A stretch of 64,000 nucleotides of DNA from Puffinus mauretanicus (taxonomy: Eukaryota; Chordata; Aves; Procellariiformes; Procellariidae). The DNA lies in the NCBI GenBank assembly GCA_023333565.1, contig JAJKFH010001548.1, positions 372,001-436,000 of the forward strand. The letters are read 5' to 3'. Below are positions 5,006 to 58,116 of this stretch, piece after piece (position 1 is the stretch's first letter; each line of letters begins with the position of its first letter). A model generated the notes under the pieces. The model saw only the letters and a program-made list of their open reading frames with translations. It was not told where the DNA came from and made no database searches. A program made the translations under genes and the position numbers.

Positions 5006-8000
5006 TTATTTACAGACATACCTCTCCACCTTCCGCCGACACTTCTTGCACACCACGTAGCAGCACCAGTGATACTTGCAGTGACACCTCTCCACCACCT
5101 CCTCCGTGTAGGTGTTGTAGCCGCGGCCGCAGCACATCAGGTGACAACTGTCGCTGCCCACGGAGGTCTTGTTGCACTGCCTGCCGAGGGGAGGGTGCAC
5201 AAGCCGGAGCTGAGGGAGCGTACCTGCCCACCCGCGGCAGCGGTGCTGACCCCAGCTATCTGCCCTGGCCAACTCCCGGAGCTCGCGTGCCCGTGGCAGG
5301 AGGCAGCGAGAGGCAGGGGTCTGCCTGCAAGCTGGGGTTGGTGTTACTATGGCAGTCTTCGAGCCGCCGTGGCGGAGGTTGGGCACACTCACTCTGTGTC
5401 ATGCTGGGGGCAGGAATTTCCCATGGAGAAGGAAGGGTGGATGGCTAGGACCAGGAACTTCTGCTACTGCTAAATCTAACAGGGATTGCAAGTCATAGCC
5501 CTGAGGCAGCCCTGGCTCAGCCTTCAGACGAGGCTTTCCCATGCCTCTAAAAACTGCCCCCAGCACTGCAATCACTCCAGAAAGGAGACATCTGGGAAGC
5601 ACCGCAGACTCCAAGGACTGCTGAACCGTTCTCGTTACCGGCAGGCAGCACCTAAAGGCTTGCAGGGAGAGGTGATATTTTCCTTTCTGACTCCTCAGTG
5701 GATGAATCCTGTCCTGAGTGCAGCTGACGGACTCTCAGTGAGGGCTCTCCTTTGCCTTTACACCTGCATAGCTCTGTAAAACTAATAATCTACCTTCCTG
5801 CCCTCCTTGGGACTTGCCAAGATTTTGCAGCAGTCCCTGTGGTGTCCCTATCTAATGGGGGACCACCCATCCACGCCAGCTTCCCGGACCACGCTCTCAA
5901 ACTCAATGGTACAGACACTCATGAAATGGGAAGCTGAGTTAGAGCGTATTTGCAGCAGTTTCTTACCTGTCCTGTGTCCCCAGAGACCCCAGGTGGAGAT
6001 TTGGCGTGCAGTAGTCGGGAGAGTTGATGAGATAAACCAGATCCGTCTCTTTCACTGGCCTGACATCCATTTCTTTGGGTATCAGCTGCTTCCTGGGCCC
6101 TATGAGCCGGTGGGTCACCTTGATGGCTGCCAGGTACTTGGACTTGAGGTCAGAGCCGATTTCACCCAGGTTTGGCAGTCCCTTCCAACAGGTCTTCACT
6201 GAACAGGAGCCTGAAACACCATGGCATTTACACTTGGTAGCCAGGGAGTCACTCAGCACCTGCAGAGGACAGGAAAACAGATGAACTTGCTTCTGCTTTC
6301 TCCTGGTACCCGTCCTACGGATTGATTTGCAAGAGCATCCATGGGAAGTTTCAAGAGATGAAAGAGCTCAGCTGCTTACTGCCACCTTCAAATGAATATA
6401 ATGGGGCAATCAAGGACTCAGCCCTGCTCCATTGCCCTTGTGATAAGAACCTAACCCTTGGGGAACTCCCTGCTGGAGCTTGCAGTGGGGCTGGTGGCTT
6501 CCCTAGCCAACACGGGTGCAGGATGGCCGCGTCCTCACCGGGGGAACACGCGTGCATGGAAGCGCAAAACCCCACAGTTCTGGGCAGGGCTGGGGAGCCC
6601 AGCTGGAGCTCTCCATGAGAGGGGCGGAAAGAAGTACTGGAAGTACTGGTGTGAAGTGGCAAGAATCTTGCCGTAGTTGTGGAAAGGGTGCAGGGATATT
6701 TGGGGAGGGTAGCAGTGGGGGATGTCTCTGCAAGCACACGTAACTCCATTTTAACCATTTAGTTGCCTCCTGACGTTAAGTACCGCATCCCAACAGCCTG
6801 GCCGGAGTCTACCGCCTTACATTAGGCACCTCTGCCCCCCGGGCTGCTGTCAGATGTGCTGGGCTGCAGCAGTCCCTGGTGGGCACCATACCCACCTGCC
6901 GGCCCACCGCATTGTTATGCAGATTCATGGCCTTGAGCGCTTGTGTCCCCAGCTTGCTGGATTTTAAGGGACTGTCAGCAAAAGCGCTGCCAAGCTGGAG
7001 GCCGTAGCGCAGGTTGTCCCCGCAGCCACCCCATCTGAAGTCGGGCCCGGGGACCTCCGAGGGGACGGAGCCGCAGGAGCAGAGAGGGAGCTCTCCCGAG
7101 GTGCAGGCTTGGGCGATGGCGTGCGTGACGGCGGCAGCAGCCAGGGCATAGACGAAGGCGGATTCCCGGGTTCCTGGGAAGAAGAGGGGGAGACGTCCTT
7201 CCTCCCTGCCCAGCCAAACGCTCCTCTCAAAGATCGCACAATGCAAATGAGGGTTTTTTTCTTGCAACAGGATAAAACCAAGGCCCAGCGTTTTTCTTGC
7301 GCTGTATTTTTAACCTGTGCCACCCATTATATTATGCTGTCAGTGTCCAGCCTCTGTCCCCACCTCTTCCCCCTTCTTTTTGGAGCCTCTGGCAGCTTGT
7401 TTTGTTTGAAATGGAAGTTACTGTCTGTCATCTCCTGCAGATCTAAGTTGCATAGGATTAACACCAGTGTAATGGCAGCAAGTTTCTCCAAAATTGACAC
7501 CCCCCAACTGAACAGCAGGGCTGTACATTAAAGCACTGCCTAAATGCTGCCTGCCCGGAAAGCTATGTGGGGCAGAAAGAGGAGCACGAACACAGCGGAC
7601 GAAGCATCCTTTACCTTTCAGCAGGTCAGGGCCAAAGCTGGGGGCACGTTGGATGGAGGAGCAGTTCCACCTCATGTCTGCAAAGGTCTTCTGACAGACG
7701 CTCTTGGTCTGGCGGGCGGCCCGGACGATGCTGTGCATGACCTCCAGGTTCCTGCGGCACATCTGGAACTGGTCGGGCACCAGCCCGGCGAGCAGCCGGC
7801 AGTGGTGGCTTTCGTTCCAGGCCACCCCGCTGCCGCTCTCCGTCAGCCCTCTGCGGGGAGAGGATGGGTGTCAGTGGGGGGGGGGGACCACAGGCACCCC
7901 TCTGGGGACCCAGCAGGAGAGGGGGGGCACCGGGGCGGGGGTGCATCCCCCCCAGCGCCACTACTCACAGCCACTGGATGGCCGTGGACAGCCCCAGCTG

Positions 8001-19785: not shown

Positions 19786-22700
19786 CTACACTTTGGTGAC
19801 GCTGTCTGCTGGCCTCGCCTCGGCTGGCTCCTCTCTTTTGGGACAGGGGGGGAAGACCCCCACCCTGTTGCTGCGGAGTCCCGCGCACCCCGGCGACTTC
19901 TGCCCTTTCTTCAGAAGGCAGCAAGCCCCGGAGCTGAGAAAGAAAAGGCTCATCATGACCACGAGCAGAGCCAGAGAGCCGGTGTCCTTGGGACGTGGAC
20001 AAAGCCACCGAGGACTGCTGCTTATCTTGGCTGAGAAGTTCCTGCTCTCGTCCCGGTAGGCGCAGAGGGCTTCGTCCAGGTCCCGCACGCCCACGCCGGC
20101 CGCCCGCAGCGCGTCCAGCCAGGCCAGCGAGCAACAGCTGAAGGGGTTTCCAGCCACGGAGACGTCCTTCAGGCTGCGGGACCAGCTGGCGAGCGCCGGC
20201 TTTTCCAACGTCAGCAGGTTGTTGTTGCGAACATCCAGGCTTTCCAGCGGGGAGCAGAAAAGACCTGTGGGCAAAAGGCTGAAATTATTGCCTGAGAGGT
20301 CCAAGACTTTGAGTGTGTCCAGGCAGGGGAGCTCTGCCTTGCTGTCGTCCATCTGGTTGCCCCTCAGAGAGAGTTTCTGCAGGGAGAACTCCAACCCCCC
20401 CAGGGCTTCCTTGGGCACGAACAGGTCCTTGTTCCCCGACAGGTCTAGGGAGAGCAGCGAGGTCTGGTTGAAGGCGTAGGGGTGCAGCCTGGTAATGTTG
20501 TTCTTGCGAAGACTCAGATGCTTCAAGCGAGGCACGTTGTAGAAGGGGGTGCAGGTGCCTCCCGGGGCTGGCACGCGAGAGCCCCCTCCCGAATTCCCGC
20601 CCCGATCGCTCCCCTGGCTCTCGCAAGGCTGGAGGCTGTTGGAGCCCAGATCGATTGTTTCCAGCTGAGGCAGGGAATCGAAAAACCAGTGTGGCAGCAC
20701 GCGGATGGCATTGCCGCGGAGGTCCAGCGAGCGCACGGAGAGCGCGGCGCGCTCCAGCGGTGCGGGCGAGCGGTCGCTGGGCTCCGTGCCGCTGGCGAGC
20801 GACTCCCCGGCTACGTCCTGGAGGCAGTTCATAGCCAGGCTGAGGCTGTGCAGAGAGCCCAGGCTGTGGAAGAAGGTAAATGGGAACAGCTGCAGCCGGT
20901 TATTGCTGAGATCCAAGTCCGCCACATGTGTCAGAGCAGCCGCGGCATGCGAGGTCCTGTTAAACCTCGCCATCTCCTCGTAGCGCAGTACAAACTCCCC
21001 CGGATGGCGTGAGCCTGGGAGCAGGGAAGCAATAAGGTTGTTGGAGAGGTTTAAGTGTGTGAGATAATGGGCTTTGGGGAGCGCTGGAAAATAGAGGAGT
21101 CTGTTATGGCTCAAGTCGAGCACTTGAAGCAGGTAGGGCTCCGCTCCCTCCTCCGAGACGAAGAGCTCCAGGGCGTTGTGGCTGAGATTTAAAACTCGCA
21201 GCTGCGTGAGGCTGAAGCCAGAGATACAGTGGAGGGAATTCAAAGCCAAGTTCACCACCTCCAGCTCTTCCAGAGCCTCAAAAGCTCCCTCCTCGATTTC
21301 CATGATGTAGTTGTCGCTGAGGTCGAGCTCGCGCAGCCGTGGCGTGCTCCAGAAGATCCCCGCCGGCAGCCTGGTCATCTTATTCCCGGCGAGATCGAGC
21401 ATCCTCAGCCTGGTGAGGTTGCTGACGTACCAGCCTGCCATGTGGCTCTCCAGGTTATTTGCCGACAGGTCCAGGACCTCTATATTCCTGAGCAGACGAA
21501 AGGCTCGCCCGTTAGCGAGGTAATTGCGGTCCAGGCGGTTCGATCCCAGGAGGAGAGAGCGCAGCTGGGGCAGCTGAGCCAGGGTCGTGGCTGACACGGC
21601 TTCCAGCTGGTTGAAGCACACGTCCAGGTACTCAAGCTGCCCAAACCCTGGCATGTGGCTGCCCGACAGGTTTTGGATGAAGTTGTTGGAGAGCTCGAGG
21701 TACTTAACTCCTTGGCCAAGTTCCTTTGGAAACTTGCGCAGGCCAACCCCTTTGCAAGACACCTTCGTGGGGCTCTACAGAGAGACAGAAGCTGTCAGCA
21801 TGAGAGGGGCTACCAACCACAGCGCCAGCCAAGCCATCTGCTGTCCAAGATGGGCATGAGCAACATAGAAATGAGCCCCGCTCCCCCTTCCCAAGCCTGG
21901 GATGGGAAGGAGCCACACCACCTAACACCCTGCTCAGAGCCAAGGAGCCTGTCCCCAGGGTCAAGGTGGGCTTTCCAAGACTCGGGCTGATACTGCTGAG
22001 TTGTTTCTGACGGCGCAAGGAGCTGGCTTAGTCTCTGGTTGTCCTCCCATGCATCCCAGCAAGCAAGGTGGGCAAAAAAGGAGCGTAACCACCGAAGATG
22101 CAGCAGGCTGGTGGGGCAAATCCAGCCTCTGGAGGGCACTGGGGCAGCCCAGGGACTGGACCAGAGCATCCCTGTCCTGTGTGGGCAGAGGAAGGGCACC
22201 ATCCTGGTGGGCTCCACCTTCCCTCTCCCTCCAAAATGGTTTCCACTGCCAATTTGGAGCTGGGAGCCTGGACGTGGAGCGGCTGGTTTCTGTCCCCCCT
22301 CCCGCCACAAATGTGGCGGGAGGGGGGACAGAAACCAGCCGCTCCACGTCCAGGCTCCCAACTGCCTTGCTAACATCCATGGCAGCGGCCTGAATCCCCG
22401 TGAGACCCTGCACTCCATCCTGCCTCTTCACAAGCATCTCCATGGCAGGGACCGCTGGAAGGTGCCACCGGCATGGCAGGGACACGGGACCAGCTGGGTG
22501 CCGGGGACCGGCTAGCGGCAAACCGGCTCGGAGACAGAAGAACAGAGAGGGGATCAAAGCTGGGAAGGTTAAAGAGATGGAGGCTGGAGGGAGGCGGGAG
22601 ATGCACCCTGCGCTGCGCAGAGGGATGCTTGCAGCCCCGCTTGGACCCAGCGATGCTGCCGGGGCCGTCCCAGCCCAGGGGCTCCTCGGGAAGCAGCCTT

Positions 22701-22822
22701 ACCTGCTGGCACGGCGTGGACCTGGGCCTCGCCTCCCCGTTAGACTGGACTCTGAGAACAGACGGGAGCAGCCAGAGCAGCAAGCATCCTCTTTCAGCCA
22801 GCCGGTGTTCAAAGAAGAGCAT
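19786..22822 (-). CDS. GARP-family leucine-rich-repeat membrane protein (LRRC32-like), complete
   Basis: Type I membrane LRR protein of the GARP (LRRC32) / NRROS (LRRC33) family, which hold latent TGF-beta on the cell surface. Coding exon 1 is 22822-22703 (signal peptide, 40 codons, donor CAG|GTAAGG). Exon 2 is 21774-19786 (acceptor CTCTCTGTAG|AGC, phase 0). The product has 702 residues; human GARP has 662. In order: hydrophobic signal around CLLLWLLPSV; LRR N-cap TPCQQSPTKVSCKGVG, matching GARP PCKMVDKKVSC; about 20 LRRs; LRR C-cap with NPFSCC and later Cys; transmembrane segment near residues 638-661; 41-residue tail ending SVTKV. Cys223 (in NSLHCI) and Cys357 (in MNCLQD) align with GARP Cys211 and Cys350, which form disulfides to latent TGF-beta. 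The ATG at 22822 has A at -3; an in-frame ATG at 22876 lies at or above the likely start site and would spoil the signal peptide. It is more GARP-like than NRROS-like by eye. Whether it is LRRC32 itself or an extra paralog needs a tree. Confidence 0.88.
21775..22702 (-). other. single intron of the LRRC32-like gene (928 bp)
   Basis: Phase-0 GT-AG intron between the signal-peptide exon and the main exon. The splice fits because the joined N-cap (PCQQ then SPTKVSC) aligns with GARP. It contains the perfect 100-bp palindrome at 22261-22360. Confidence 0.8.
22261..22360. repeat. perfect 100-bp palindrome (49-bp arms, 2-nt centre)
   Basis: Bases 22261-22309 and 22312-22360 are exact reverse complements over all 49 positions, separated only by AA at 22310-22311. 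I checked each 10-base block. The match stops at once on both sides (C at 22260 against A at 22361). The arms are GC-rich and include a C-run and G-run. It lies within the LRRC32-like intron. Such a perfect fold-back could be a recent template-switch event, a cruciform or hairpin-RNA source, or an assembly artefact. Confidence 0.97.

Positions 22823-29039: not shown

Positions 29040-58116
<29,077 letters not shown>

Follow-up and report, generated by a model that had tools for sequence, protein, structure and literature searches.

The window analyzed in the present study is a stretch of 64,000 nucleotides from Puffinus mauretanicus (assembly GCA_023333565.1, contig JAJKFH010001548.1, positions 372,001 to 436,000). 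On its minus strand, between WNT11B and EDA (ectodysplasin A), lies a two-exon gene (19786-22822) related to LRRC32 (GARP) and NRROS (LRRC33), for which we use the working name LRRC32B. The spliced reading encodes 702 amino acids and a stop codon, with a GT..AG intron in phase 0. Coding exon 1 (22703-22822, minus strand, 40 codons) is an ATG-started open frame up to a GTAAGG donor and encodes a signal peptide, judged by eye, and the first LRRNT cysteine. Since the public gene models of other birds span this exon and cover 100% of the 702-residue protein, with identities of up to 93% (P0001), exon 1 is not a chance frame. The intron (21775-22702, minus strand), delimited by its donor and acceptor, ends 6 codons ahead of an LRRNT cysteine. 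Coding exon 2 (19786-21774, minus strand), an open frame of 662 residues, encodes the leucine-rich repeat (LRR) ectodomain, LRRCT, transmembrane helix, tail, and stop codon. The intron also contains a palindrome (22258-22363) with 52-base arms that are 98% complementary and a 2-base spacer, which may reflect either a recent inverted duplication or a fold-back of the assembly.

LRRNT, the LRR array, LRRCT, and one transmembrane helix were all present, the cysteines of LRRNT and LRRCT being assigned by alignment. The exon 2 product matched the LRR_8 profile (1.3e-57) and was modeled by AlphaFold2 with a mean predicted local distance difference test (pLDDT) score of 81.7. The predicted fold was GARP-like; NRROS 7y1r was absent from the fold-search rows listed, despite a strong sequence match to NRROS. 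The transmembrane helix (residues ~638-661; 19912-19983, minus strand) was placed from a hydrophobic stretch and helix 598-621 of the exon 2 model, where confidence was middling (block pLDDT 63-71). An earlier model-made reading of the locus (the sequence-only reading) had described a 702-residue product with a GARP-type LRR layout and a transmembrane segment, on which the gene structure, alignment, and model agree.

The cytoplasmic tail (residues ~662-702; window ~19789-19911) is longer than that of LRRC32 and ended in T-[KEQ]-V in 34 of the 35 listed bird models of at least 670 amino acids. The turtle and crocodile models inspected, as well as both squamate ones, had the same end, which was not seen in the sharks and marsupials inspected; the newt tail ends in MTTL. 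We take T-[KEQ]-V to be a class I PDZ-ligand-like end. Since this end was absent from the sharks and marsupials inspected, lineages may differ in how the protein is trafficked or clustered.

The genome examined (1.21 Gb, 2370 contigs) holds three such genes: the window gene, LRRC32 on contig C2298, and NRROS on contig C484. The gene on C2298 is an LRRC32 orthologue, scoring 518 bits to human LRRC32 versus 254 to NRROS, and its contig also carries the only EMSY-type ENT-domain match in the genome, a calpain match, and a four-exon WNT gene. The gene on C484 is NRROS (641 bits), with a PAK-like PBD domain ~50 kb away. Since true LRRC32 and NRROS genes are present in the same genome, the window gene is supported as a further GARP/NRROS-family member separate from both. 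The sequence-only reading had made this proposal dependent on birds also having LRRC32 beside WNT11, and the gene content of C2298 bears it out. In comparisons with five LRRC32 and NRROS sequences, the window protein showed 33.7-37.5% identity (36% for LRRC32/GARP and ~34% for NRROS), whereas identity within paralogues was higher (48.0% between bird and human LRRC32, 54.4% between bird and human NRROS). In a sequence search against solved structures, LRRC32/NRROS kin scored 270-227 bits and the next solved LRR protein 108. Moreover, each of the three genes has a phase-0 intron that precedes the same LRRNT cysteine by 5-6 codons (6 in LRRC32 and 5 in NRROS, taking for these paralogues the likeliest acceptors, chosen by pyrimidine tract).

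The neighboring genes distinguish the window gene from its paralogues. WNT11B (5009-7789, minus strand) was recognized from four Wnt-model stretches (5009-5185, 5963-6301, 6887-7177, and 7613-7789) and was 67.6% identical to the WNT on C2298, compared with 45.6% to another Wnt on C246. EDA was represented by two exon stretches (29094-29288 and 31346-31447, minus strand; PDB 7x9g/1rj7, E values of 1.3e-39 and 1.2e-17). These stretches are ~6 kb upstream of the gene start on the same strand, and the remainder of EDA probably continues toward higher coordinates. Since the window gene lies between WNT11B and EDA, and LRRC32 accompanies WNT11 on a different contig, C2298, an early vertebrate duplication is suggested. 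In the available parts of the chicken literature, a chromosome 1 gene list groups UVRAG, LRRC32, EMSY (printed as 'ENSY'), and WNT11 (PMC10976558), while WNT11B is placed at 1.18 Mb on chromosome 4, in a segment spanning 0-2.9 Mb that also includes AR, EFNB1, FAM155B, IGBP1, and PDZD11 (PMC4948856). The chick is also described as having two WNT11 genes, the second of which arose by duplication in vertebrates and has been lost from mammals (PMC3498729). In a check of the PAK/calpain paralogon, calpain was found on the LRRC32 contig and PBD on the NRROS contig, and neither was found on the contig of the window; PBD and calpain matches occurred together on contig C92, which could not be linked to the window. 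A crude exon hunt in the window by codon usage, which may miss other genes, named nothing besides WNT11B, the window gene, and EDA.

In a 34-row tree, 24 orthologues of the window gene formed one clade (98/94) that branched largely as the species tree, separate from LRRC32 (4 rows, 100/100) and NRROS (5 rows, 100/100). The sequence-only reading would have been contradicted had the protein fallen within the LRRC32 clade and had the genome lacked a further copy; the window gene was outside this clade and another copy was present. It was also outside the NRROS clade in the 34-row tree; the approximately unbiased (AU) test covered groupings with LRRC32. The order of the paralogues depended on the root: LRRC32 was paired with the new clade in the first tree and with NRROS in the 34-row tree, both midpoint-rooted with a long hagfish branch in play and with LRRC32 and NRROS rows from amniotes only. 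The cartilaginous-fish orthologues in the clade and the WNT11/WNT11B flanks fit ohnology from the two rounds (2R) of vertebrate genome duplication, a fit that does not distinguish whole-genome from segmental duplication. All three genes are putative 2R ohnologues.

Besides birds, orthologues were found in turtles, crocodilians, squamates, frogs, salamanders, and caecilians, in five cartilaginous-fish genera (Mustelus, Pristiophorus, Pristis, Leucoraja, and Callorhinchus), and in nine marsupial genera (Sminthopsis, Sarcophilus, Trichosurus, Vombatus, Notamacropus, Petaurus, Macrotis, Phascolarctos, and Gracilinanus). The sequence-only claim of a further family member stands, but that reading underestimated the age and spread of the gene; the gene ranges from cartilaginous fish to marsupials and is no avian novelty. 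Two broad protein searches were performed, with 120 matches listed in each; one scored only proteins of at least ~684 amino acids, and in the second, 7961 candidates were scored and the lowest listed match had 521 bits. No placental, monotreme, or ray-finned fish orthologue was present among the 120 matches listed in either search, and pseudogene remnants were not sought. In the first of these searches, the listed placental matches that bore a name were LRRC32 proteins scoring no more than 297 bits. Since a placental orthologue should probably outscore turtles (up to 633 bits with a marsupial-shark profile), the gene is likely missing from annotated placental proteins. The indication for monotremes is weaker, and for ray-finned fish we draw no inference either way. 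Six of the nine marsupial records are on sequences of 60-104 Mb, the bilby record is on one of 705 Mb, and two are on contigs of less than 3 Mb; our guess is that the 60-104 Mb sequences would suit a small marsupial X. In humans, AR, EFNB1, FAM155B, IGBP1, and PDZD11 are genes of Xq12-q13, and EDA is a gene of Xq13.1.

The sequence-only reading had also placed two cysteines in repeats matching those of GARP Cys211 and Cys350, which the alignment confirmed. Cys223 (codon at 21226-21228, minus strand) corresponds to GARP Cys211 (human, PDB 6gff and 8rew) and NRROS Cys201 (human, PDB 7y1r), and Cys357 (20824-20826, minus strand) to GARP Cys350 and NRROS Cys345, in matching repeats and with a spacing of 134 versus 139 in GARP and 144 in NRROS. 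The motifs NNLPCI and QNCLMT, quoted there as those of GARP, are both from human NRROS and do not occur in the human GARP stretch compared, which reads NSLTCI and RNCLRT. Among 35 aligned orthologues picked to cover the clade from shark to bird, Cys223 was conserved in 35 and Cys357 in 34, the sole exception being Tyr in the frog Hyperolius (P0131). In a list of 120 proteins (the bird list; 11 without an organism name, the named ones birds; 2 of less than 560 amino acids dropped), the cysteines were present in 118/118 and 117/118 of the aligned proteins, respectively. Since this retention is near-universal, whereas Cys93, which has no obvious partner, was conserved in just 6/35 orthologues, it reflects more than chance. 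For comparison, 101 of 600 ectodomain columns were conserved in at least 34 of the 35 orthologues, and 67 of these 101 were L and N of the LRR scaffold. Both tethering cysteines were also present in all seven LRRC32, NRROS, and hagfish rows and, hence, are not special to the window gene. The hagfish protein, annotated as LRRC32 (Myxine glutinosa, P0142), joined NRROS on a long branch, a tentative placement. Since it has both cysteines, they may predate jawed vertebrates.

For the other cysteines, position suggests putative pairs, namely 38 with 47 in LRRNT, 424 with 448, 524 with 547, and the four in LRRCT, which would leave Cys223, Cys357, and the variable Cys93 unpaired. Cys38 is encoded by exon 1, outside the alignment, while Cys47 was found in 31/35 and Cys448 in 27/35 orthologues. 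Cys547, possibly paired with Cys524, was present in 35/35 orthologues and in 0/7 LRRC32, NRROS, and hagfish rows, and serves as a handy marker for the new subfamily.

The window protein shares one contact residue with NRROS that LRRC32 lacks. Tyr196 (21307-21309, minus strand) aligns with NRROS Tyr174, a needed TGF-beta1 (transforming growth factor beta 1) contact; according to the available part of the LRRC33 structure paper, Y174R sharply reduces TGF-beta1 complex formation, and NRROS Cys201 and Cys345 bond to Cys4 of the latency-associated peptide (LAP) (PMC9411592). Tyr196 was present in 118/118 aligned proteins of the bird list and 27/35 orthologues, and the column holds Tyr in 3/3 NRROS rows and Val/Ile in 3/3 LRRC32 rows. 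Of three aromatic contacts of NRROS that were examined, two (Phe196 and Tyr217) are not conserved in the window clade, so isoform preference may differ.

We consider it likely that the LRRC32 (GARP)/NRROS family has LRRC32B as its third member in jawed vertebrates and that this protein is a membrane anchor for latent TGF-beta. The analysis establishes gene structure, separate orthology, spread, cysteine conservation, the shared intron position, predicted fold, synteny, and the LAP cysteines of the ligand genes; TGF-beta binding, the isoform, cell types, and the unpaired state of Cys223 and Cys357 we infer. LRRC32B would be a type I membrane protein with an LRR horseshoe bearing two unpaired cysteines, and would meet pro-TGF-beta in the secretory pathway. 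Each of Cys223 and Cys357 would then most likely be disulfide-bonded to one chain of the pro-TGF-beta dimer, at the N-terminal cysteine of its LAP. By analogy with GARP and NRROS, latent TGF-beta would stay at the cell surface until activated by integrins.

A third member with the same fold and cysteines might have another cargo, such as another TGF-beta-superfamily pro-form, or a mainly intracellular role. We regard this as rather unlikely, though worth weighing: identity to either paralogue is just 34-38%, the two aromatic contacts are lost, and the tail is long with its PDZ-like end, whereas both tethering cysteines are conserved from shark to bird and the LAP cysteine is retained in all three TGF-beta genes of the genome. 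That the gene is a plain avian LRRC32 orthologue, as some databases name it, is highly improbable; the first midpoint-rooted tree did place it beside LRRC32, but a separate LRRC32 is located with EMSY and WNT11 on C2298, Cys547 is, among the rows compared, confined to the new clade, and grouping four avian copies with LRRC32 cost 74.3 log units (AU p 3e-70). Grouping four marsupial copies with LRRC32 cost 32.2 log units (p 0.0056); both groups were named after the first tree had been seen. An LRRC32 or NRROS duplicate specific to birds or sauropsids, to which the two WNT11-linked positions in one genome might point, is equally improbable given the shark, amphibian, and marsupial orthologues and their branching largely by species.

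If LRRC32B is such an anchor, its importance lies in the fact that the site at which latent TGF-beta is held determines its site of action. Conserved and bearing both tethering cysteines, this third member is an immediate candidate anchor in birds and marsupials and a natural comparison for the determinants of isoform choice. It is also a probable immune-regulatory gene seemingly missing from placental model species. We give about even chances to the broader view that jawed vertebrates had three latent TGF-beta membrane anchors, the third, which preferred a ligand and cell type of its own, being lost toward placentals while birds, reptiles, amphibians, cartilaginous fish, and marsupials keep all three, and that the marsupial gene is probably X-linked near EDA. 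If true, work on mice and humans has missed a third anchor because it was lost in the line to placentals.

Entries for these proteins already exist in NCBI and UniProt, where they bear names such as 'LRRC32-like'. We found no account of the gene as a third GARP/NRROS-family member in the open-licence PMC literature, outside which most subscription papers lie. In their available passages, PMC12706012 applies 'GARP paralog' to LRRC33, the LRRC33 structure paper names GARP and NRROS as the two membrane anchors (PMC9411592), and two chicken papers on T-cell surface TGF-beta name mammalian GARP alone as the anchor. A chicken 'LRRC32' reported as raised in the infected bursa (PMC5424287, available in part) could refer to either gene.

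Regarding the ligand genes, three first exons of this genome (L054-L056), which we take to be those of TGFB1, TGFB2, and TGFB3, retain the LAP cysteine bonded by the anchors. Four other loci from the pro-peptide search (L050-L053) were rejected as TGFB because their exons were BMP-like by eye. The contig bearing the TGFB1 first exon (L056, G000:C2327:1500-2300) is 18 kb long, and the exon is adjacent to repetitive open frames rich in proline.
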